In this document: in pieces, positions 1,679 to 46,773 of the stretch | How the letters are laid out: each line of letters opens with the position of its first letter | Numbering within the stretch: position 1 is the stretch's first letter | Assembly: GCA_946629065.1 (NCBI GenBank) | Contig: CAMOXK010000004.1 | Coordinates: forward strand, 1-54,130 | Origin: an uncultured Clostridia bacterium | Lineage (GTDB): Bacteria; Bacillota; Clostridia; Oscillospirales; Oscillospiraceae | Direction of reading: 5' to 3' | Length of the DNA: 54,130 nt | Notes under the pieces: model-generated | The model's database searches: none | What the model was told of the DNA's origin: nothing | Seen by the model: the letters and a program-made list of their open reading frames with translations, nothing else | Translations under genes and position numbers: made by a program

Positions 1679-2298
1679 GCTTCGCTCTCCTTTACGTTGA
1701 CGCCAAGATCGCGGAGCTCCCGGCGCAGACGCGCCATGTCCTGATAGAACACCAGGCCCTGCATGCCGGTGCGCCTGGCGCCCTCGATGTTGGGAGGATA
1801 GTCGTCCAGGAAAAGGCATTCCGCCGGGGCAAGCTGATACGCGGAGAAGAGCTTCTCATAGATCTCATGCTGGGGCTTGAGGAGCTTCCAGTCCGCGGAG
1901 ACGATATGCCCGCGAAAATGTTCCGATCCCGGGATGCGGCAGAAATAGCCGTGGAGGGCGGAGGTGGCGTTGGAAAGCAGATAGATCCCATAGTCCATGG
2001 AATCCAGCTCGGCGATGAGCTCCGCCATGCCGGGGACGGGCCAGAGCTCGTCCTTCCACCAGAAGATGCAGCGGAGGGCGGCCTCGTGCAGCCGCTCCGG
2101 CAGGCGCTTTCCCATGCTCTCCAGCGCCTCTTGCTCGGAAAGGCTGCCCCGGTCCAGGCACACCCATTCCACGCTTTGAAAGACCTCCCGGCGAAGGAGC
2201 TGACTGTCTTCCTCACTGAGCCCAAGCCGGGCCACGATGCGGGCGGGGTCCCAGGCGATGAGGACGCCGCCCATATCAAATACTACGTTACGGATCAT
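1675..2298 (-). CDS. HAD-superfamily hydrolase, subfamily IA (sugar-phosphatase-like)
   Basis: 207 residues. HAD motif I is FDMGGVL at residues 7-13, so the nucleophile is Asp8 and the acid/base is the second Asp-equivalent position, here Gly-shifted as in YihX-like members. Motif II is LLSNAT, the conserved Lys lies in LLKPQHEIYE, and motif IV is FLDDYPPNI. The layout and length match YihX-like alpha-D-glucose-1-phosphate phosphatases and other IA variant 3 enzymes. Both ends overlap neighbours by 4 nt (ATGA), so it is translationally coupled between the permease and the sugar isomerase. In this context a phosphatase acting on an imported sugar phosphate is the natural guess. The precise substrate cannot be read from sequence. 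Confidence 0.8.
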   Translation of the reverse strand: MIRNVVFDMGGVLIAWDPARIVARLGLSEEDSQLLRREVFQSVEWVCLDRGSLSEQEALESMGKRLPERLHEAALRCIFWWKDELWPVPGMAELIAELDSMDYGIYLLSNATSALHGYFCRIPGSEHFRGHIVSADWKLLKPQHEIYEKLFSAYQLAPAECLFLDDYPPNIEGARRTGMQGLVFYQDMARLRRELRDLGVNVKESEA

Positions 2299-4202
2299 AG
2301 GGTTTTATTGACTTCCTTCTTTTCTGTCTTGCCGAAGAGCTTTTCCCAGCGCTCCCGCCGTCTCTTCCGGATCTCCAGCCGCTCGCCCAGGTCTCTCGAG
2401 CCTACGCCATAGACCAGGTAGAGGACAATGCCGGAGACGATCATGATGAACACCGTGGAGGCGCAGCGGCGGCCCAGGGCGTTCATGTTGGCGCCGCGGG
2501 TGGCGTCCGCCAGCATGCCCTGGATGACCATGGCATAGGTGATGCCCTGGGGGCTCTGGAAGGTGGCGGACATGTCGTATTCGGTGAAGAGGGCGTTGAA
2601 GTTCAGGGCAAAGACCGCGAGGACAGAAGGCAGGATGATGGGCAGCTTCACCTTCAGGAAGGTGCTCAGCCCGCTGGAGCCCAGATTTCGGGCCGCGTCC
2701 TGCAGCTCATCGTCGATGGCGTAGAAGCTGGCCTTGATCATACGCAGGGAGAAGGGCAGCTTCGTCACCGTATAGGCCATGATGATCAGGAAGCGGACGT
2801 TTTCCTTGGAGTAGAGATTGGTGTTGCCCACATACCAGACGTCGTTGGAGTTGAAGTAGGTCCGGTAGGAGTAGCAGATGAGGATGGTGGGCAGCAGCCA
2901 GGGGAAGAGCAGGGAGTATTCCAGCACGATGCCGGAGAGCTTGCTCTTTTTCTTGTTGAAGATGTAGTTGCAGGCCACCACTACGATGACGCAGGCAAGC
3001 GCCGCAGCAATGGCGGACATGAGAAAACTGAGCTTGATGCCGCCCAGGGTCTTCTCGTTGGAGAACACGCCGGAAATGGCGCCAACCACCGTCTTCTCCC
3101 GGCCGCGGTCGTTGGTATAGGTATAGTCCTGCTTGCCGATGAAGTTGATGAGGGTCCATCCGTTCAGATCCAGGCGCTTGCCCTTGATGGCGCTGTAGTT
3201 CTGAAAGGAGAAGACGATGATCATGACCACCGGGGTCATGTAGATGATGAAGAGGATATAGGCGTAGATATGGGCGATAACGTTCCAGACGGGGTTTGTG
3301 ATCTTCTGCTTCTGGAGCTTGGCCTTGGTCTTGGAGACGGAGAGGTAGTGGCCCTTGCGCTCATAGGCGGAGAGCACCGTCAGCAGCACGATGGTGAACA
3401 TGGCCAGGATGATGGAGAGCAGGGCGGCGCGGGCCTGGGGGAAGGCCTCGTCCGCGGTGGAGGAGCCGGCCAGACGCACGATCTCGGGGTTGATGGAGTC
3501 ATAGCCCAGAAGGGTCGGCGCGGACATGGCGCAGAGGCCCGTAATAAAGGTCATGACGGTAAGCGAGAAGAGCGTGGGCAGCAGGGAGGGCAGCACCACC
3601 TTCAAGAGCACCTTGAAGGGCCGGGCGCCCATGTTGCGGGCCGCCTCCACGGTGTTGTAGTCGATGCCGCGGATGGCGTTTCGCAAAAAGAGCATGTGGT
3701 TGGAGGTACAGGCGAAGGTCATGGTGAAGAGCACCGCATTGAAGCCGGAGAACCAGTTGGGGTTGAAGTCCGGGAAGGCGTTCTTCATCAGACTCGTGAG
3801 CATACCGTCGCTGGCGTAGAGGAACATGTAGCCGGTGACCAGGGCCACGCCGGAGTAGATCATGGTGGTCATGTAGCCCATGCGCAGGATCCTGGCGCCC
3901 TTGATATCGAAATACTCGGTGAGCAGCACCAGGGAAATGCCGACTACGTTTACCGTGACCACCAGGTAAATGGCAAGCTTCAGGGAGTTCCAGACATAGC
4001 GCTTCATCTTGCCCGCCAGGAAGAAGCGGATGACCGCGAAGGGATCCGTCTCCCCCGCTGCGTTCTTGGTACGGAAGATGCTGGTCAGGGTATTCAGGCA
4101 GGGCAGCAGCATGAAGCCGAAGAACAGATAGGCGAAAAACGCAATGCCGAAGACACGCAGCAGGGTTTCCGGCCGAAGCTTTCTGTCAAGGCCTTGGCTC
4201 AT
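2295..4202 (-). CDS. ABC transporter permease, two fused permease domains (FbpB/AfuB-like)
   Basis: 635 residues with roughly 12 membrane segments and two copies of the binding-protein-dependent permease domain. Each has an EAA loop that docks with the ATPase: EAARNMGARPFKVLLKVVLP in the first half (about residues 170-190) and DAARNLGSSGLSTFLKVKLP in the second (about 500-520). A single chain with both halves is typical of the iron(III)/2-aminoethylphosphonate/hexose-phosphate branch (FbpB, AfuB) and not of the oligosaccharide branch. It is somewhat longer than usual because of a charged insert around NGWTLINFIGKQDYTY, which probably faces outward. The start overlaps the ATPase stop (ATGA at 4199-4202) and the end overlaps the HAD start. 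Confidence 0.88.
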   Translation of the reverse strand: MSQGLDRKLRPETLLRVFGIAFFAYLFFGFMLLPCLNTLTSIFRTKNAAGETDPFAVIRFFLAGKMKRYVWNSLKLAIYLVVTVNVVGISLVLLTEYFDIKGARILRMGYMTTMIYSGVALVTGYMFLYASDGMLTSLMKNAFPDFNPNWFSGFNAVLFTMTFACTSNHMLFLRNAIRGIDYNTVEAARNMGARPFKVLLKVVLPSLLPTLFSLTVMTFITGLCAMSAPTLLGYDSINPEIVRLAGSSTADEAFPQARAALLSIILAMFTIVLLTVLSAYERKGHYLSVSKTKAKLQKQKITNPVWNVIAHIYAYILFIIYMTPVVMIIVFSFQNYSAIKGKRLDLNGWTLINFIGKQDYTYTNDRGREKTVVGAISGVFSNEKTLGGIKLSFLMSAIAAALACVIVVVACNYIFNKKKSKLSGIVLEYSLLFPWLLPTILICYSYRTYFNSNDVWYVGNTNLYSKENVRFLIIMAYTVTKLPFSLRMIKASFYAIDDELQDAARNLGSSGLSTFLKVKLPIILPSVLAVFALNFNALFTEYDMSATFQSPQGITYAMVIQGMLADATRGANMNALGRRCASTVFIMIVSGIVLYLVYGVGSRDLGERLEIRKRRRERWEKLFGKTEKKEVNKTL

Positions 4203-37929: not shown

Positions 37930-38024
37930 GTTTCCCTCCCCTTTCTCGCCTTCCCTTCCGCTGAGAGCAGGAAGCATTTTTTATACAATACCACGAACAG
38001 GGCGAAAAAACAAGCAAACGAAAA

Positions 38025-38055
38025 ACGGAGTCTGCCCACAGCGAACAGACTCCGT
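38025..38055 (-). terminator. Terminator of the acyl-ligase/ACP/condensation/MMPL operon
   Basis: The stem ACGGAGTCTG / CAGACTCCGT with an 11-nt loop is followed by TTTTT on the minus strand, 18 nt after the MMPL stop codon. This closes the operon here and separates it from the ABM gene cluster. Confidence 0.85.
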
Positions 38056-38072
38056 CTTTTCATGTATACACG

Positions 38073-41000
38073 TCAGTCTTCGGCAGTCCGTCTTTTCCGA
38101 AACAGGAACTCCGAAAACAGCGCAGCGCAGATGGTCAGGATCAATGCTGCCAGGGGCAGCAGGCCGCCCAACATCACGCAGCGGCTGCGCCAGATCACAA
38201 GAGCCATCAGGCTCAGCAGACCGGCGGCGGCGCTGAGGATGGCCGCGGGAAGCGGCTTCTTTTTCAGGGCATTCGCGAGGACCAGGGAAACCACAGCGCA
38301 GATCAGCGACAGCGCCATCAGGATGGACCCAAAGCGAGCGGAACGGTTTTCGTTTTCCGCCTGCTGCAGGAGGCCGCGGTAATAGGACTCCGCAGCATCC
38401 AGCGTCTCCAAGGCGCCGGCATTTCTCGAGAGCGTGTCCTTGAGCCCCGGCTCGGATTTCAGGAGCCGCAGTCCCTGCTTCAGCCGTTCCATCTCATCGC
38501 TGAGCTGGTCCAGGTCGGAAAGGCTGTTGTTCAAGGCTGCCAGGTTCTCCTCCAGCATCTCACGGCCTTCCTCCAGCTTCTGACGGCCGGCCTCCAGCTC
38601 ATTGCCGCCCTCTTCCAGGAGTTCGTGGGCGTCGTTCAGCTGTTGTCTGCCCTCTGCGATCTGGCTTCCGCCCTCGGCCAGCTGGGCATAGCCCTCGTCC
38701 AGGGCGGCTTTGCCCTCGGCCAGCTGCCGTTCGCCTTCGGCCAGCTGCTGCTCGGCCTCCGCGGCTCTGGCATAGCCCTCATCCAGCGCGGCCTTGCCCT
38801 CGGCCAGCTGCTGCTCGGCGGCAGCAGCCTGGGCATAGCCCTCGTCCAGCGCGGCCTTGCCTTCGGCCAGCTGCTGCTCCGCAGCGGCCAGCTGGGCTCT
38901 GGCCTCCTGGTACTGCGCCGCAAGGCCGCCCAGGCTCATCCCGCCAAGCTGGGCCTCCAAGGATGCCCGCACGCCTGCCAGCTCCGCTGCGATGATCAGA
39001 GCGGAGGCAATGTCGCCCTGCTCTATGGCGGCATCATACTGTTCCTGCAGCGCATCGGCGCGGTCCTGCAGGGCACTGATCACCGCGTAGAGCGGTTCCA
39101 CCGCGTCCAGCGCGGCTTTGGCAGAGTTATACTGGGCAAGCCCCTCGTCATACTGGGCCTGGCCTTCGGCCAGCTGGCGCTGGCCTTCCTCGTAAGCGGC
39201 CATGCCGGCGTCATACTGGGCCTGGCCTTCGGCCAGCTGGCGCTGTCCCTCCTCGTAGGCGGCAAGGCCTTCGTTATAAGCGGCAAGGCCCGCGTCATAC
39301 TGGGCCTGCGCCTCGGCAAGCCTTGCCGCGCCCTCGTCATACTGGGCCTGGGCATCCGCCAGCTGGGCTGCGCCGGCATTGTACTGGGCAAGGCCGCTGT
39401 TGTACAGCTCCTCGTTTTCCGCCAGCACCTGCTCGCCCTCAGCCAACTGCACGGAGCCGACCTCGTCGGTGACCAGCTGCTGGGCAAAATCATATTTCAG
39501 GCTGTCCAGGTCATTGCCTTCCCCTTCCAGCTTCTCCGCCAGGGCGCGGAGCTGGCCGGTCTGCTCCAGCAGACCGCCCACCCGCTCTTGAGAGTCCTTC
39601 AGCAGCGAAGCGCCCCGGTGCAGGCCGAGGGGAATGGTGGCTGCGGCAAACAGCATCGCCGCGGCCAGGAGCCCGCCGGCAATGCGCAGGCGATTTCTGG
39701 CCAGGAAGCCCAGGAAGCGGGACTTTTCAGTGTGCAGCGTGGTAGCCGACACGAAGGAATCTCCCAGCAGGAGCACCTGCGGCAGGGCAAAGAGGATCAG
39801 CACAAGGGAGATGCTGGTGCCGGTACCCACATAGTAGCCCATGCCGGCGATGATGCACTGGGACACCTGGAAGCCGATCAGCAGGCCCGCGCAGACCATC
39901 ATGAGGCCCGAGGTGATGATGGTGGGGAAGGCCAGATTCAATGTCTCGATAATGGCGTCCCTCTTGTCCATCGTCTCCCGGAATTCCCGGTAGCGGGAAG
40001 AGACCACGATGGCATAGTCGATATTGGCGCCCATCTGGATGGCGCTGACGATCAGATAGCAAAGGAAGAACACATAGTCGCCCTTCAGGGCGGCAATGGC
40101 AAAGTTCATCCAGATGCTGCCCTGGATCACCAGGATCAGCAGCAGGGGCATGCCGAAGGACTTGAAGGTGAAGAACAGGATCAGCATCACCAGCACCAGG
40201 CTCATGAGGCCCACCACTGCGTTATCCGCGGCGAAGGAATCCCGGAAGCCCAGCGCGCTCACCGAATCGCCGGTGAGGACAACGCCGCTGTCATAATACT
40301 GGGCGGCGATATGGTGGATCTGGTCCAGGAAGCGGAAGGTCTCCTCCGACTGGACCGGCAGATTCAGGTCCAGCACAAGGCGGCTGTAATGCTCGCTCAT
40401 CAGTTGGCCCCGGACCATGCTGAGCTGATCGAAAAGCTGCTTGATGAGCGCCACCTGGTTCTCTTCCAGCTCCACATCCCCGGCCTCTACCCTGTCATGC
40501 AGGAAGAGGAACAGATCCAGAAGCGAGGCCTTGTAGCCGGCCAGATTCTCACGGGCAGCCCGATGGTCGCCCTGTTCTGCGGCGTAATAGGCGAACACAG
40601 CCTTGGCGCTGATCTCATCGATGCCCGCAATGTTCTGAAATTCGGTGTAATCCACCGCATCGGTGATGGTGTGGCCCTCGATGGCCTCGATATCGGCCAG
40701 TCCCATGGCGGACTTTACCTCCGGGTGGAGCTTCAGCTCCTCCAGCAGCTCCCGCTCGGCGGCATAGTCCCCGGAGGGGACCATCACGGCCACCACATTG
40801 CTGTGGCCGAAGGTCTCCCGGACCTCTTCCTTGGAGCGCTCATACTCGGTCTGGCGGAAAGCGGGGACCATGTCCACACTGTAGGCATAGTGCACCCGGC
40901 TGAAGGTCAGATAGGCGCCCACCACCAGCAGCACCAGCAGGATAGGCATCACGAAGCGGGACTTGTAGGCAAATTTGCCGATGGGGGTGATCTTGGGTAC

Positions 41001-41960
41001 GAAGCGGCGATGCCTGGTTTTGTCCATGGCCTTGCCGAAGGCCATGAGAAGCGCCGGCATGAAGAAGAACACCGTGAGCAGGCTGCAGAGGATGGCCTTG
41101 ATCAGGGTCATGCCCATATCCACGCCCAGACGGAACTGCATGAAGGTCATGGCCGTGAGGCCGGCAATGGTGGTCAGGCTGCTGGCGAAGATCTCCGGAA
41201 TGGAGGCTGTCAGAGCCTTCACCACGGCGTCATGGATATCCAGGCGCTCATGCTCTTCCTTGTAGCGGTTGCAGAAGATGATGGCATAGTCCACCGACAG
41301 GGCCAGCTGCAGCACAATGGCCACGGAGTTGGAGACGAAGGAGATGGTCCCCATCAAAAAGTGGGTGCCGATGTTGATGACGGCCGCCACCATAAAGGTC
41401 AGGATCATCACCGGGATCTCGGCATAGGTGCTGGAGGTGAAGACCAGCACCGCAAGGACCACGATGACCACAAAGATCAGCACGGTCAGCATTTGCTCGG
41501 CCACCAGCTTGGAGAGGCTGAAGCCCACCTCCGTATCAATGGTGACGTCCCGGTCTGCCAGCAGCGTCTTCACCTGCTCCAGCGCCTGTTCGCTGCGCTC
41601 GGAGGCCGCCACGTCCGCAAAGGTCAGGTCGAAGAGCGCGGTATCGTCCTTATAGTGGGAAGCGCTGTCGTCAAACTGGACCAGGACCACGTCCTGGACC
41701 TTGGACAGATCCCCGGACAGGGCTTTGGCGTCCTCCAGACTGATGTCCCTCACCATGACCTTGGCAGTGCCGTAGGTGATGAACTCCTCCTCCATGATGG
41801 CCAGGCCCTGCTTGGCTTCGGCCTCCTCCGGCAGATAGGCGGTGATATCCTCCTCCACCTTGATCCATCGCAAGGAGAACACCGAGAACACGAGCATCGC
41901 CGCGAAGAGCAGAAGGATCCATCTCCTTCTGTCAACCACGAAGCTCGCAAGCCGGGTCAT
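38073..41960 (-). CDS. MMPL/RND-family exporter with long coiled-coil insert
   Basis: 1,295 residues, a duplicated six-helix MMPL exporter. The N-terminal helix (RRRWILLLFAAMLVFSVF) is followed by an outside domain (KVEEDITAYLPEEAEAKQGL), the first membrane bundle (VALILQLALSVDYAIIFCNR-like stretch with SVDYAIIF), a second outside domain, and a second bundle with MGANIDYAIVVSSRYRE near residue 650. Between the second bundle and the last helices, about residues 840-1130 form a low-complexity alpha-helical region of units such as LAEGQAQYDAGMAAYEEG. This resembles the extended coiled coil of YhgE/Pip proteins. A C-terminal bundle of about four helices follows. Proton-driven export of lipids or amphiphiles is the family role (MmpL, HpnN). 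I chose the ATG at 41960, with AGGAG 4 nt upstream; the upstream ATG at 41984 lacks one. Last gene of the operon. Confidence 0.88.
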   Translation of the reverse strand: MTRLASFVVDRRRWILLLFAAMLVFSVFSLRWIKVEEDITAYLPEEAEAKQGLAIMEEEFITYGTAKVMVRDISLEDAKALSGDLSKVQDVVLVQFDDSASHYKDDTALFDLTFADVAASERSEQALEQVKTLLADRDVTIDTEVGFSLSKLVAEQMLTVLIFVVIVVLAVLVFTSSTYAEIPVMILTFMVAAVINIGTHFLMGTISFVSNSVAIVLQLALSVDYAIIFCNRYKEEHERLDIHDAVVKALTASIPEIFASSLTTIAGLTAMTFMQFRLGVDMGMTLIKAILCSLLTVFFFMPALLMAFGKAMDKTRHRRFVPKITPIGKFAYKSRFVMPILLVLLVVGAYLTFSRVHYAYSVDMVPAFRQTEYERSKEEVRETFGHSNVVAVMVPSGDYAAERELLEELKLHPEVKSAMGLADIEAIEGHTITDAVDYTEFQNIAGIDEISAKAVFAYYAAEQGDHRAARENLAGYKASLLDLFLFLHDRVEAGDVELEENQVALIKQLFDQLSMVRGQLMSEHYSRLVLDLNLPVQSEETFRFLDQIHHIAAQYYDSGVVLTGDSVSALGFRDSFAADNAVVGLMSLVLVMLILFFTFKSFGMPLLLILVIQGSIWMNFAIAALKGDYVFFLCYLIVSAIQMGANIDYAIVVSSRYREFRETMDKRDAIIETLNLAFPTIITSGLMMVCAGLLIGFQVSQCIIAGMGYYVGTGTSISLVLILFALPQVLLLGDSFVSATTLHTEKSRFLGFLARNRLRIAGGLLAAAMLFAAATIPLGLHRGASLLKDSQERVGGLLEQTGQLRALAEKLEGEGNDLDSLKYDFAQQLVTDEVGSVQLAEGEQVLAENEELYNSGLAQYNAGAAQLADAQAQYDEGAARLAEAQAQYDAGLAAYNEGLAAYEEGQRQLAEGQAQYDAGMAAYEEGQRQLAEGQAQYDEGLAQYNSAKAALDAVEPLYAVISALQDRADALQEQYDAAIEQGDIASALIIAAELAGVRASLEAQLGGMSLGGLAAQYQEARAQLAAAEQQLAEGKAALDEGYAQAAAAEQQLAEGKAALDEGYARAAEAEQQLAEGERQLAEGKAALDEGYAQLAEGGSQIAEGRQQLNDAHELLEEGGNELEAGRQKLEEGREMLEENLAALNNSLSDLDQLSDEMERLKQGLRLLKSEPGLKDTLSRNAGALETLDAAESYYRGLLQQAENENRSARFGSILMALSLICAVVSLVLANALKKKPLPAAILSAAAGLLSLMALVIWRSRCVMLGGLLPLAALILTICAALFSEFLFRKRRTAED
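38620..39440 (-). repeat. Internal near-identical repeats in the MMPL coiled-coil region
   Basis: Blocks encoding LAEGKAALDEGYA and AEGQAQYDAG(M/L)AAYEEGQRQ recur many times. Two blocks at about 39150-39215 and 39215-39280 are almost the same 66-bp sequence. Copy number could vary by slipped replication. Confidence 0.65.
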
Positions 41961-42045
41961 AAAACTCCTGTTCTCATTGTTCATTTTCGCGAATCACACC
42001 TTCTGTAACTCTCGAACACCGCAGAGGGCGCCCGGCAAAAAAGGT

Positions 42046-43404
42046 TTAGATACTCTCGTCAACGAGCGTACCAATTGCCTTGTCCGGCTGTGCGATTCCC
42101 TTTTCCAGGAACTTCAGCATAAATGCATGGAAGCGCTCCACGTTTTCGCGCGGCGTGTAACCCAATGCATAGCTGTAAGTAGCGCTCATCGTTCCATGGT
42201 TGCTGTCAGGAATAATGAGCATATAAAGCGGAATCGCAGCCCAGCCGTTTGTAACAAACTTGACTGACAGATCAATCAGCCCTTCCCCATGGGTAACGGG
42301 AGGGAAATAGGTGAGCCACGAAGAAAAATAGGTGCCGTTCTCCGGAACCCCATATTTCTCATTCACAGCGCTGATCACTTCACTGTCCACGACCTTGGCA
42401 TAGCGCAGTTCTTCATTCTGAATATCCGACAGCATCAAAACCGCATCCTGGAAAGAGCAGTCATCGGGGATCACAGAGCGAACCAGCTGAGAATCTGCCA
42501 TATTCATACCGCAGTGCTTTTCGAAGAGAGTGGACCGGCAGCAAACCAGGGAGGCGATCGTAACATCATCCGTATTGCTTACACGGCCCTGATAGCTCCG
42601 AAGCGCAAGAAGGAAGAAATTCAGCGGCGCGATATTCAATCTCTTTGCTTCCTTTTCTATCATTTCCCCGAAAGCTGGCTGGAGGGGATAAGAGATCATT
42701 CCTCCTCCGAACTGGGAGAAATCCTGCTTCTTCCCGTATCTCTTTCCCTCAACGAACTCCGGTGCGCCGGCTCCATTAATGGAAGAAAAGCAAGGCTCTG
42801 TATCAAAGTAAGAGCAGAGCTTCTGAAAGCCCTTTTGATAGCGGGGACTGGCATGGAAAGCAAGGTCGTTGTCAATCAGCGGCCACGGCTCAGGTCCCGG
42901 GGACGGAAGCTCTGTGCCGCACAGGAGAGAAGTGTATACTTTGCTGACATAGTGAAGCGTGTAAATGCCCGCATACCCATCCATGATAAAATGCTGGAAG
43001 CAGAAGAAGAGTCCCTGGTGTCCATCCTGATAGTGGAGGATCTTGAACTTATAGAGTTGGATTTCCTCGAAGCTCTCGGGAAATGCATCTCTGTTCCACT
43101 GACGGAAGACCTCTTCAAGATTTGCCTCTTCCTCCTGGGACAGGTCAACCGTTTCGATCGGTTCCGGTTCGTTGCCGCACAAATACTGTACAACATTCCC
43201 GTCTTCCCGTCTTCTGAAGCGAACATTGCAATAGGGCAAACGTTTAACCGATTCCACGATCGCTTTTTTCATGAGTTCTTCATCGATCTCACTTTTGAAG
43301 TCCACAACAGCGATCAAAGAAAGCAGTTCCAGGGTATGAACAAAATCAGCCAGGTTCGCCACCACATTTTGCGCTGCGGTCAACGGGTATTCTTTTTCAT
43401 TCAT
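42046..43404 (-). CDS. Free-standing condensation-domain acyltransferase
   Basis: 452 residues, the size of one NRPS condensation domain (CoA-dependent acyltransferase superfamily) with no adenylation or carrier domain attached. The active-site motif appears as FQHFIMDGYAG near residue 140, that is QHxxxDG. The first His of HHxxxDG is Gln, and the catalytic second His and Asp are kept. The N-terminus (EYPLTAAQNVVANLADF) matches the usual PLTxxQ start. Substrate-tunnel segments such as INDADDVTIASLV appear as SNTDDVTIASLVCCRS. It probably transfers an acyl chain from the adjacent ACP to an amine or alcohol. Sampled lines of this gene are about 47-52% GC against 63% in the ligase gene, so it may have a different origin. 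GGAGG lies 10 nt upstream of the ATG at 43404, 16 nt after ACP. Confidence 0.85.
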   Translation of the reverse strand: MNEKEYPLTAAQNVVANLADFVHTLELLSLIAVVDFKSEIDEELMKKAIVESVKRLPYCNVRFRRREDGNVVQYLCGNEPEPIETVDLSQEEEANLEEVFRQWNRDAFPESFEEIQLYKFKILHYQDGHQGLFFCFQHFIMDGYAGIYTLHYVSKVYTSLLCGTELPSPGPEPWPLIDNDLAFHASPRYQKGFQKLCSYFDTEPCFSSINGAGAPEFVEGKRYGKKQDFSQFGGGMISYPLQPAFGEMIEKEAKRLNIAPLNFFLLALRSYQGRVSNTDDVTIASLVCCRSTLFEKHCGMNMADSQLVRSVIPDDCSFQDAVLMLSDIQNEELRYAKVVDSEVISAVNEKYGVPENGTYFSSWLTYFPPVTHGEGLIDLSVKFVTNGWAAIPLYMLIIPDSNHGTMSATYSYALGYTPRENVERFHAFMLKFLEKGIAQPDKAIGTLVDESI

Positions 43405-43420
43405 TATGCCTTGGCCTCCA

Positions 43421-43645
43421 TCAGACCTTTCCCTCCAGGAACTTGACCAGCTCCCGGATGGTGAAGAGATTGCGCAGCTCCGGCGTCTCGATGGTGATGT
43501 CGAATTCATCCTCTAGGTCGCCCACCATGGTCATGATGTCCAGGGAGTTCATGGCAAGGTCGTCGATGAAGCGGGTCTCGGGGGTGAGGCCGCCTTCCGG
43601 CTCCTCCACATAGTTCAAAAGGATCTCGCAGACTTTTTCGTACAT
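43421..43645 (-). CDS. Acyl carrier protein, operon-specific
   Basis: 74 residues with the four-helix ACP pattern. The phosphopantetheine attachment Ser34 lies in DDLAMNSLDIM, so the usual DSL motif is NSL. Helix II then reads IMTMVGDLEDEFDI, followed by acidic residues that would contact partner enzymes. It lies between the acyl-activating ligase and the condensation-type transferase. It is probably charged by the former and unloaded by the latter; it need not be the housekeeping AcpP. It requires a PPTase encoded elsewhere. AGGAG lies 7-8 nt upstream of the ATG. Confidence 0.92.
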   Translation of the reverse strand: MYEKVCEILLNYVEEPEGGLTPETRFIDDLAMNSLDIMTMVGDLEDEFDITIETPELRNLFTIRELVKFLEGKV

Positions 43646-43685
43646 GATTGTTTCTCCTGTTCTATAGTGTTTTGATCGGTACAGT

Positions 43686-45326
43686 TCAGCGCTTCCCGGC
43701 GGGCTGCGCCAGCAGATAACGCTTGATCTTCATGGTGGTGGTCTTTTCAAAGGGAGTGGAGCGCAGCTTGACCTTCTGGATGTTCTTGCAGGAGGGCATG
43801 CTGCTGTTGAAGAGGCGGATATCCTCCTGCAGGCGCTCCGGCGCATCCGGATAATCCGCAGTGTCCAGGTAAAACTCGCCGGTGACGGCCTTGTCTTCCT
43901 CGTACACGGCAACTTCCTTCACATACTCCAGCCTGCGCAGCTTCTCCTCCAGTTCCTCCGGGGAGACGTTCTTGCCGTTCGCCAGAATGATCAGGTTCTT
44001 CTTCCGCCCGGTGATGAAAAGGAAACCGTCCTTGTCTATGTAGCCGTAGTCGCCGGTCTTGAACCACTCGCCTTCAAAGGCTTCGGCAGTGGCCTCCGGG
44101 TCCTTGTAGTAGCCCAACATCACATTGGTCCCGGCAACATAGATTTCCCCCACGCCTTCCTCGTCGGGATCGGCGATCTTTACCCGGTTGCAGGGCAGGG
44201 GCTTGCCCACGCTGCCGAAGCGGAAGTCGTTGTTGCGGTTCACCGCCACCACCGGGGAGCACTCGGTGATGCCGTAGCCGTTGATGACCGTGATGCCGAA
44301 ATCGTACAGGCCCTTCTGCAGCTTGGGGTCCAGGGCAGCGCCGCCGCAGATGATGGTCTCCAGCTTGCCGCCGAAATGCTCATGGATCCGGCGGAACAGG
44401 CGCTTGCGCAGATCGATGCCGCAGATCATCAATGCCTGGCTCAGGGTGATGGTATGGCGCAGCTTTTTGTCCATGCCCTGCTTCTTGGCGTTGACCCAGA
44501 TGCCGTTATAGAGCATTTCCACCATCAGCGGCACCGCGGAGATGTTCTGGGGTTTGTTCTGGTTCAGATCCTTGACGATGCGCTTCATGCTGCCGCTGAT
44601 ATGGGCGTCCACATTGTAAAGGAAAGCGGCGAACATGGCAGAGGCCCAGGAGAAGGTATGGTTCATGGGCAGGAAGATCTGGGTATTGCGGGCGGTGACG
44701 CACTGGCAGGTGGCCACCACGTCGCTGGCCAGATTTCCGTGGGAGAGCATGACGCCCTTGCTCTTGCCGGAGGTGCCGGAGGTGTAGACGATGCAGGCCA
44801 GGGTATCCGGCGTCACGGTGGTCTCGGCAAAGGAGCGGTCTCCGTCCTGCATGAGATATTCCCCTTCGGTCACATAGGCATCAAACTCATTGATCGTGAA
44901 ATAGAGCATATGGGAGAGATCATCCAGGCTGTGGAAATAATCCGCCACATCGGTATATTTCTTTGAGAAGATGATGGCCTGGCAGCCGCAGTGGCGGATC
45001 AGTTCCGCCAGATCCTCCCGGGGCAGCTCCTTGTCCAGGGGGACCACCACGTTGCCGGTGCTGACGATGGCGAAATAGCTCAGGCACCACTCGGTGGAGT
45101 TCTCGCCCAGCAGGGCGATCTTCGCGTCCCGCAGCTCCTGGTTCAGCAGGAAGGTACCCAGGGCCTCCACCAGATGATGGGCGGACTTGAAGCTGATGGG
45201 CTGGGTATTCCGTTTGCCGCCGTAAAAAATCGTGTTGTTGCCGCCCTGATCCCGCCCGTAGGCGATCAAGTCCCGCAAGGTGGGAACTTCGGCGATCTCA
45301 TAGTACGGATACGGTGCGTTTTTCAT
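43686..45326 (-). CDS. AMP-dependent acyl ligase (acyl-ACP/acyl-CoA synthetase type)
   Basis: 546 residues, full length for the ANL superfamily. Motif A3 is YTSGTSGKSKGVMLSHGNL near 184, A5 is GYGITECSPVV near 351, A7 is FKTGDYGYIDKDGFLFITGR near 421, and the C-terminal catalytic Lys is in TTTMKIKRYLL. It activates a carboxylate as acyl-AMP. In the operon with a free ACP and a condensation protein, loading a fatty or aryl acid onto the ACP is the most economical reading. The specificity cannot be deduced. It is first in the operon, about 75 nt downstream of a strong promoter. GGAGG lies 13 nt upstream of the ATG at 45326, a long spacing. Confidence 0.9.
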   Translation of the reverse strand: MKNAPYPYYEIAEVPTLRDLIAYGRDQGGNNTIFYGGKRNTQPISFKSAHHLVEALGTFLLNQELRDAKIALLGENSTEWCLSYFAIVSTGNVVVPLDKELPREDLAELIRHCGCQAIIFSKKYTDVADYFHSLDDLSHMLYFTINEFDAYVTEGEYLMQDGDRSFAETTVTPDTLACIVYTSGTSGKSKGVMLSHGNLASDVVATCQCVTARNTQIFLPMNHTFSWASAMFAAFLYNVDAHISGSMKRIVKDLNQNKPQNISAVPLMVEMLYNGIWVNAKKQGMDKKLRHTITLSQALMICGIDLRKRLFRRIHEHFGGKLETIICGGAALDPKLQKGLYDFGITVINGYGITECSPVVAVNRNNDFRFGSVGKPLPCNRVKIADPDEEGVGEIYVAGTNVMLGYYKDPEATAEAFEGEWFKTGDYGYIDKDGFLFITGRKKNLIILANGKNVSPEELEEKLRRLEYVKEVAVYEEDKAVTGEFYLDTADYPDAPERLQEDIRLFNSSMPSCKNIQKVKLRSTPFEKTTTMKIKRYLLAQPAGKR

Positions 45327-45400
45327 GGAATCGCAAAAACCTCCGGTGGCGTTCGGGCATATTTCTGCCGCACTACGCCATTTTATTTTATGACCAAAAT

Positions 45401-45429
45401 ATTATATGAATCAACTTTCGTGAAGTCAA
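45401..45429 (-). promoter_or_regulatory. Promoter of the acyl-ligase/ACP/condensation/MMPL operon
   Basis: TTGACT (45429-45424), a 17-nt spacer and TATAAT (45406-45401) form a near-consensus promoter. A second TTGACA lies just upstream (about 45448-45443). An imperfect inverted repeat (ACTTcacgaAAGT) lies in the spacer. The AT-rich leader is about 68 nt. Confidence 0.75.
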
Positions 45430-45561: not shown

Positions 45562-46773
45562 TCACGGATCGCACAGGAAAACGGCAGCACCCACATCGTA
45601 GGCCCGGATGCTGTTCCCGTGCACTTCCATCGCCTCTCCTTCCACGCTTCCCTCCAGCACCTGGATGGCGCCGTCGTGCAGCTTGTCGATCAGCTCCGGG
45701 AAAACCGGGAACGAGCCGTGAGAGGGCCAGATCTCATCGAAACGGTCCCGCCAGGCCTGCAGATGCTCCAGGCTGCGGATATACTTCTCCATGTTCCGGA
45801 AACGGCCGAACATAAAGATCCGCCCGTCCTGAATGGGGTCTCCGCTGATCAGGACCCGTCGGGACAGGTCCAGCAGGGCGATGCTCCCCGGGGTGTGTCC
45901 CGGAAGATGGATGACTTCCAGCACCCTTTCGCCAAGGTCGATCCGTTCTCCCTCCCGAACGGGGAGGATCTCCCCCTCCCGTCCCCCGCGGCGGAAGTTC
46001 TCTTCCTCCTCCGGGTGCATATAGAAGGCATCAAACTGGGCATTGCTGCCCACATGATCCATGTCTCCATGGGTGTTCAGCAGGCAGATGGGCAGATTTG
46101 TGAGACCTGAAGCAATGTCCCGGGCGTTGTGAACGCTCCGGCCGGAGTCCACCAGCAGCGCACGCTCCGTTCCCGTAAGCAGGAAAAAGCGCACGCCGCT
46201 GTCCTCGATACGCCAGGAGTCCCGGTCGATCTGTATGATCTGATATTTCATATTGTAATCTCCTTCTCCCGAGGCTTCTGCCTCAATGCGGCCCAGCTCC
46301 TTGTAGATCATCCCATTCTTGCCGCGATCGGAGCGCATAAGGGAAATCGCCTCCACCCGCATGGCGGCAGGCGCGATCCCGATCCCCGCGGCATCTCGCG
46401 AGGCCTTTCGCACCAGGGTGATGTGGGGAGAAAAGCGCTTGCGGTCAAAGGGGATGCAGTTCTCGGCCAGGGCGCGGCGCACCCGGCGCGCCACCGCATT
46501 CAGCGCGGCGGAATCCTGCAGGCCCGCCCACCAGAGATCGCCGAAGCGCCCGATCCCTTCCAGTGTAAGTGCGAAGGGCCTGAAGCTCACGGTGCTCAGG
46601 GCATCCAGCACCGGCTCCGCCCGGGGTAGGTCTCCGATGAAGGCCAGGGTCAGGTGGAGATTTTCCTCCGGGCTGTAATTTCCCCGCAGGCCGCGCTCGT
46701 ACATGACGTTCTGGGCCTCGATGAGGGAAGTTTTCATTTCGTTAGACAGCAGGATCGCGATAAACAGTCTCAT
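45562..46773 (-). CDS. Fusion: 2H RNA cyclic-phosphodiesterase and MBL-fold hydrolase
   Basis: 403 residues in one uninterrupted frame. Residues 1-174 are a ThpR-type 2H phosphoesterase with HLTLAFIGDLP near 40 and the second motif SPHITLVRKAS near 125. Residues 175-403 are an MBL hydrolase with NTHGDMDHVGSN (HxDxDH) near 245, LPGHTPGSIALL and SGDPIQDG, and WPSHGSFPV near 350. At 46251 there is an ATG preceded by GAAGGAG at 46258-46264, a strong ribosome site inside the frame. A separate 229-residue MBL protein could therefore also be made. The 2H start at 46773 lacks a clear ribosome site. Probably two formerly adjacent genes whose stop codon was lost. The MBL substrate is unknown. Confidence 0.82.
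   Translation of the reverse strand: MRLFIAILLSNEMKTSLIEAQNVMYERGLRGNYSPEENLHLTLAFIGDLPRAEPVLDALSTVSFRPFALTLEGIGRFGDLWWAGLQDSAALNAVARRVRRALAENCIPFDRKRFSPHITLVRKASRDAAGIGIAPAAMRVEAISLMRSDRGKNGMIYKELGRIEAEASGEGDYNMKYQIIQIDRDSWRIEDSGVRFFLLTGTERALLVDSGRSVHNARDIASGLTNLPICLLNTHGDMDHVGSNAQFDAFYMHPEEEENFRRGGREGEILPVREGERIDLGERVLEVIHLPGHTPGSIALLDLSRRVLISGDPIQDGRIFMFGRFRNMEKYIRSLEHLQAWRDRFDEIWPSHGSFPVFPELIDKLHDGAIQVLEGSVEGEAMEVHGNSIRAYDVGAAVFLCDP

Follow-up and report, generated by a model that had tools for sequence, protein, structure and literature searches.

An exchangeable condensation-enzyme gene in a putative N-acyl-amide operon of uncultured Clostridia

Organization of the operon

We analyzed a 54,130-nucleotide stretch of DNA from an uncultured Clostridia bacterium of the Oscillospiraceae (GenBank assembly GCA_946629065.1, contig CAMOXK010000004.1, positions 1 to 54,130), hereafter the window. 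Open reading frames and Pfam searches revealed a minus-strand operon at 45.4-38.0 kb that encodes, in this order, an acyl ligase (A), a free acyl carrier protein (ACP; T), a free-standing condensation enzyme (C), and an MMPL-family exporter (Table 1). An initial annotation made from the window alone had recognized these four genes, and Pfam backs the family of each; the exporter has 1,303 residues, not the 1,295 given there. The most unusual feature of the operon was invisible to that reading, namely that C has been exchanged between otherwise conserved copies.

The intergenic gaps are 40 (A/T), 16 (T/C), and 61 nt (C/MMPL). The single transcription unit proposed earlier is supported, and a promoter-like site and a terminator-like hairpin enclose the genes. 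In 12 kb, 11 promoter-like sites were found against a shuffle mean of 3.3 (standard deviation 2.1), and the site before A is the best of them; both of its hexamers also occur upstream of A in the related genomes RUG166 (G831) and RUG180 (G832). Terminator-like hairpins were found at 19 sites versus 11.0 in shuffles. Because the operon recurs in other genomes of the genus, it is more than a chance arrangement. The start of C is likely the ATG at 43404, as an alternative longer frame from 43509 overlaps the ACP gene. The GC content at third codon positions (GC3) of C is 0.58, compared with 0.82-0.84 for A, T, and MMPL. Other C genes of the window type span 0.63 to 0.88, so the low value is a hint for the window only.

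Thirteen membrane-like segments were predicted in MMPL by hydropathy, the last three of which follow a region of some 330 residues with a heptad pattern. This region is possibly a coiled coil long enough to span a thick cell wall. Tandem 21-, 42-, and 63-bp repeats at 38549-39389 encode the Gly/Ala-rich heptad region. The membrane part matches the structures of MmpL5 and MmpL4 (best 1.5e-10). The genome assembly, 67% complete in 203 contigs, contains one ACPS-family gene.

Table 1 Features of the window operon and GH3-family genes of sister operons (the latter in coordinates of their own loci)
Feature	Position	Strand	Evidence or remark
Promoter-like site, sigma-70-type TTGACT-17-TATAAT	45401..45429	-	11/12 consensus matches
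A, AMP-binding acyl ligase, 546 aa	43686..45326	-	Pfam AMP-binding 5.9e-66
T, free acyl carrier protein, 74 aa, ...LAMNSLDIM...	43421..43645	-	Pfam PP-binding 2.2e-9
C, free-standing condensation enzyme, 452 aa, QHFIMDG, exchangeable gene	42046..43404	-	Pfam Condensation 5.9e-16
MMPL-family exporter, 1,303 aa	38073..41984	-	Pfam MMPL PF03176 5.1e-39, two stretches
Intrinsic-terminator-like hairpin, 18 pairs	38021..38059	-	
Recombination tract around C	40584..44394	n/a	Outside C, window mostly G832-like within, mostly G831-like on both sides
GH3-family genes in sister operons	L148 9422-11140; L149 3241-4983; L211 8253-9947 and 11650-13386		Pfam

Exchange of C between conserved operons

The window, G831, and G832 carry the operon at one and the same locus, where most flanking proteins are 77-94% identical. 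Against G831, the window shows 98% identity in A, 99% in T, 96% in the membrane part of MMPL, and 37% in C; against G832, the values are 98, 98 (computed over the 57 residues of the G832 ACP), 98, and 37%. The ACP gene of G832 (L144 6704-6877) encodes these 57 residues after an in-frame 51-bp loss following the serine arm, relative to the window and G831. The common sequence stops at the ACP stop codon and restarts at the start codon of MMPL. In 100-column bins inside C, the DNA is 43-61% identical to the window, and the C genes of G831 and G832 are 81-93% identical to each other.

In trees of C, the window grouped with G848, G835, and G856 (98-99 bootstrap) and G831/G832 with G865 (100); in trees of A and MMPL, the window, G831, and G832 were placed together with support of 100/100. 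Constraining the three C sequences into one group cost 143 log-likelihood units (13 rows), and the approximately unbiased (AU) test returned a p-AU of 6.7e-109. C is an exchangeable gene amid conserved A, T, and MMPL.

The neighboring sequence carries a recombination signal. At 486 sites the window sides with one of its two relatives (300 G831-like, 186 G832-like), and a further 73 sites are specific to the window. Sites of the G832-like kind concentrate around C, between 44394 and 40584, with a maximal excess of 119 that was reached in none of 20,000 shuffles, which ignore site linkage. G832 itself was not the donor, because its C belongs to the other type. Synonymous divergence (dS) was 0.12-0.31 for the core genes, 0.47-0.50 for the distal half of MMPL versus G832, and 0.45-0.90 for most flanking genes, the exceptions being VanZ (0.23) and ABM (0.32) between the window and G831. 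Between G831 and G832, C is 93% identical, with a dS of 0.70 and a nonsynonymous divergence (dN) of 0.036 (dN/dS about 0.05), which indicates that the retained C is under purifying selection.

Remnants of replaced genes were found as well. G856 contains the last 99 residues of a C that are 88% like the C of G848. In G848, in turn, short fragments resemble the C sequences of G856 and G835 (63-86%), a stretch of 22 GtrA residues is 95% like that of G856, and GH3 is matched marginally (53%, E 0.002). Turnover of C is supported because G848 and G856 keep remnants of each other's C type. All genomes compared are incomplete assemblies, one per species.

To place these values in a wider frame, all 36 pairs among the nine loci with C were compared. 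A was at least 75% identical (rounded) in 13 pairs, in 11 of which C was 37-43% identical; C reached 93 and 78% in the remaining two. Overall, C identity was 34-48% in 32 of the 36 pairs. For operons of the classic order C-T-A, introduced below, 20 of the 27 complete loci were compared (omitting L040, L043, L044, L046, L047, L071, and L195). Here A was at least 55% identical in 27 pairs, and all 19 with A of at least 75% had C at 79-95%; two lower pairs had C at 40% with A at 57 and 55%. In an internal control of 15 pairs, from five same-genus genomes and one family member, A was 79-95% and C 83-95% identical. These counts are not independent, since pairs share genomes. Exchange of C as a property of the whole family was rejected, given that C tracks A in 20 of the 27 classic loci, including the five same-genus genomes.

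Distribution and gene order

Among 102 genomes of the genus, A occurs at 66-100% identity in nine including the window (66-98% in the other eight), and A matches passed 1e-80 in 19. The co-occurrence check suggested by the initial annotation gave a positive answer, as the same gene set recurs in the same order. A-T-C-MMPL is the order in the window, G831, G832, G845 (RUG12356), and G865 (an SRR873600 bin of unstated source). The other loci read A-GH3-T-C-MMPL in G835 (RUG498), A-T-C-GH3-GtrA-(C remnant)-MMPL in G856 (Red_deer_2_mag_2), A-C-T-(remnants) up to the contig end in G848 (RUG13034), and A-T-MMPL with C not in the operon in G029 (RUG13294). Thus, a full-length C was present in eight of the nine same-genus loci having a window-type A, and MMPL in all eight long enough to show it. 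We take RUG to denote rumen uncultured genomes, and the genus relatives of the operon would accordingly come mostly from ruminant guts.

Three loci have a more distant A. An SRR12081297 bin has A-T-C with no MMPL match, RUG13917 (L210) has A-T, and a sheep ileum genome has GH3-A-GH3-C-T-MMPL, in which C falls outside the window-type clade and MMPL is different. In L210, a GDSL-type lipase/acylhydrolase (2291-3718) follows A and T, replacing C and MMPL. Pairs of acyl ligase and ACP in the same order, with no C match in the stretch searched, were seen in L119, L122, L123, L150, L151, and L160. In G035, an MMPL gene (L117 7005-11672) 77% identical to that of the window over the membrane part adjoins a divergent TetR-family gene.

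We also mapped 37 regions around C homologues outside the window operon group, some of them cut by contig ends. Among 20 regions from class genomes (from 52 matching of 391), 17 are complete C-T-A, one is C-T-A with its A truncated at the end of the contig, and two have only a C running off the contig. Eight regions from the taxonomic order (from 18 matching of 394) comprise four C-T-A, one A-C-T, one C-A-T, and two with C alone. The nine from the genus and family comprise six C-T-A, one C alone, one with two C genes, and one C-T without an A match. Complete C-T-A operons thus account for 27 of the 37 regions, and the window genus itself has classic C-T-A operons in six genomes. No convincing MMPL match (cut-off 1e-3) was found in any of the 37 regions, the sole match below the cut-off (L201, 4e-4) covering the repeat region only.

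Upstream of the operon, a 403-aa frame at 45562-46773 fuses LigT (RNA 2',3'-cyclic phosphodiesterase) and a metallo-beta-lactamase-fold part; these are two frames in G831 and lie ~1 kb apart in G832.

Kinship with fatty-acid-amide operons

The window operon is related to the fatty-acid-amide (CTA) operons known from gut Clostridia, from which it has diverged. The CTA operons have been characterized by in vitro reconstitution and a crystal structure of the C enzyme (PMC13142362), and producing strains are reported in the available part of PMC13060934. The view in the initial annotation that no such system had been described in Clostridia was therefore rejected: the kind of pathway is already known, and what is new is the exchange of C between near-identical cores. 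The window C matches the C enzyme OaaC (PDB 12kh) over its full length with an E value of 3.7e-31, and the next match has 0.24. OaaC itself has been shown to be a homodimer in which the ACP site is hidden. OaaC was absent among the 50 matches listed by VIA-align for the window C, from a library that ends on 8 April 2026. In the C tree, the window type forms one clade with fatty-acid-amide C enzymes (100/99), apart from the C domains of nonribosomal peptide synthetases (NRPSs). Inside this clade, window-type sequences stand beside, not among, 26 CTA-like sequences, a split with weak support (84/43).

The noncanonical (D/H)HxxxDS-type motif of CTA enzymes was not found in the window C, which has QHxxxDG. 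Among nine window-type sequences, the first motif residue is H in four, Q in three, and E in two, and the last is G in five and A in four. In the 26 CTA-like sequences, the first is D in 13, H in nine, and another residue in four, and the last is S in 15, A in nine, another residue in two, and G in none. A last residue of G was reported in 17% of 127 sequences (PMC13142362). Seven stretches of viral contigs fitted a pattern in the search with the window C, and none of them encodes a relative.

GH3-family genes lie inside the operons of G835, G856, and the sheep genome according to Pfam. The G835 gene (L148) matches plant auxin-conjugating amido synthetases in the PDB along nearly its entire length (9.7e-51). 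Enzymes of the GH3 family make acyl-amino-acid amides, and the bacterial GH3 enzyme OlsH makes N-acyl ornithine (available part of PMC12493201); the match of the G835 gene and the product of OlsH together suggest that an amide is formed with an amine or an amino acid. GH3 was present in five of the 102 genus genomes, two of them with a window-type operon, and absent from the window genome assembly. As these are too few for a firm association, the evidence for the link is the position inside the operon.

Proposed function and alternative explanations

We consider it probable that the window encodes an N-acyl-amide operon with a largely fixed A-T-MMPL core, in which C is exchanged between species by recombination, presumably with a change of amine and product. 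In this pathway, an ACPS-type phosphopantetheinyl transferase would prime the ACP, and A would activate a free fatty acid with ATP and load it onto the carrier. C would then take the acyl chain off the ACP and join it to a small free amine or amino acid, and MMPL would export the resulting amide. Recombination would swap C between species while A, T, and MMPL stay largely fixed, and a swap would presumably change the amine and hence the product. The gene families support the logic of activation, carrier loading, transfer, and export in the initial annotation, and an acylated amine, one of the products listed there, is supported as the likely one.

Several points weigh against this interpretation. 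The A-T-MMPL operon of G029 means that C may be optional, no MMPL match accompanies the related A and T of L209 and L210 in the stretch searched, and the MMPL of G035 stands without A, T, or C. MMPL matches at 1e-30 were found in 35 of 60 relatives searched. The low GC3 of C is clear in the window only, and the group constrained in the AU test was taken from the identities of A, T, and MMPL, yet with the first C tree already known. All operon carriers with known record titles are metagenome or uncultured-bacterium assemblies. Furthermore, the choice of amine by C has been reported for the classic family, not for the window clade.

The exporter could be a mere neighbor that exports something else, the pathway then being that of an ordinary fatty-acid-amide operon whose genes stand in a different order. 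The lack of a convincing MMPL in the 37 surveyed regions and the solitary MMPL of G035 would fit, but its presence in eight of eight same-genus loci, a recombination tract reaching the 5' part of MMPL, and a different MMPL in the more distant sheep operon make this explanation unlikely. Somewhat less credible still is a complete lipid or fatty-acid export unit for detoxification, A-T-MMPL, to which C would be an inessential addition that comes and goes and has no lasting role. The operon of G029 retains A (69%), T (73%), and MMPL (72%) but lacks C, no C match was found in the 92%-complete genome of G029, and free fatty acids are toxic to related bacteria (available part of PMC13060934). Nevertheless, C is full-length in eight of nine loci and under purifying selection where retained, and the eroded copies adjoin intact ones of another type. 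An ester lipid pathway like the mycobacterial FadD-Pap-MmpL systems, in which C would join the acyl group to a polyol or alcohol, is improbable. C-fold enzymes can make esters, and the exporter resembles MmpL5 and MmpL4, but the nearest relative of C is the amide-forming OaaC and sister operons contain GH3-family genes.

The exchange itself could be an artifact of chimeric metagenome assembly, given the incomplete, fragmented window genome and the metagenomic origin of the named loci. This is very improbable, as the breaks coincide with gene borders, the reading frames are open, and several independent assemblies show the pattern together with eroded C remnants of reciprocal type. We give almost no weight to fast divergence of C in place. 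C is indeed diverse across the clade, but the C sequences of G831 and G832 have a dS like that of flanking genes, the window C falls not with them but with its counterparts in G848, G835, and G856, and the adjoining A, T, and MMPL are 96-99% identical. The AU test, the mosaic tract, the dN/dS ratio, and the C remnants reject it as the sole explanation.

For the N-acyl-amide operon, fatty-acid detoxification, a signal, or a weapon would all be fitting roles. Host receptors are targets of the fatty-acid amides of gut Clostridia (PMC13142362), and these compounds may shield the producing cell from free fatty acids (available part of PMC13060934). The exchange of C favors a role in which the identity of the product matters. 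We give about an even chance to a broader idea, a natural combinatorial lipid system in which a fixed loading and export core takes plug-in whole-gene amide modules (C types, sometimes GH3). Related rumen species with near-identical operons would then make and export different acyl amides, with C behaving like the specificity subunit of a restriction enzyme and its diversity kept by selection on the product. An exporter-bearing branch with a swappable amide-forming gene would illustrate how fatty-acid amides diversify in nature, and its C modules appear to be compatible with a single pair of acyl ligase and ACP. The C alleles that conserved flanks enclose in rumen DNA would be a direct route to what selects the product.

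Comparison with known systems

No MMPL in a fatty-acid-amide operon and no exchange of C was reported among the literature matches listed, and the founding study of Chang et al. 2021 could describe such neighbors; the evidence for novelty is weak, because this negative covers only the top matches. Like the CTA operons (OaaA-OaaACP-OaaC of Coprococcus eutactus; Blautia wexlerae), the window operon encodes a free-standing ligase, ACP, and condensation enzyme together, and the catalytic His and Asp are kept in 35 of 35 C sequences. It differs in its order A-T-C-MMPL instead of C-T-A, in a C 20-27% identical to classic ones, in the exporter inside the operon, in the exchange of C between conserved cores, and in named relatives that are mostly ruminant-gut genomes.

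The mycobacterial lipid loci are composed of FadD, Pap, and MmpL genes and have in common with the window operon the logic of acyl activation, acyl transfer, and MMPL export. The likeness noted in the initial annotation holds for the MMPL superfamily, with its MmpL5/MmpL4 structure matches; otherwise only superfamilies are common as far as tested, the ACP is separate here, and the closest matches of C are OaaC and the C domains of NRPSs. The name Pap appeared on none of the 37 PDB matches to the C profile, and no direct comparison with Pap was made. Starter-type NRPS condensation domains (RzmA; the first C domain of CDA, which we take to be lipid-initiating) are 12-15% identical to the window C, which, unlike them, is free-standing and outside any assembly line.

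OlsH and the plant GH3 amido synthetases belong to the same family as the GH3 genes of two sister operons, which are probably amide-forming too; the main text of the OlsH paper (PMC12493201, available in part) contains neither "acyl carrier" nor "condensation". Recombining NRPS domains, as in the replacement of microcystin A domains (PMC2174460) and the wider recombination landscape (PMC8097286), likewise swap specificity parts in a conserved biosynthetic frame, as far as the available parts of these sources describe. Unlike those domains, the window case replaces a whole free-standing gene, from start to stop, in a four-gene operon.

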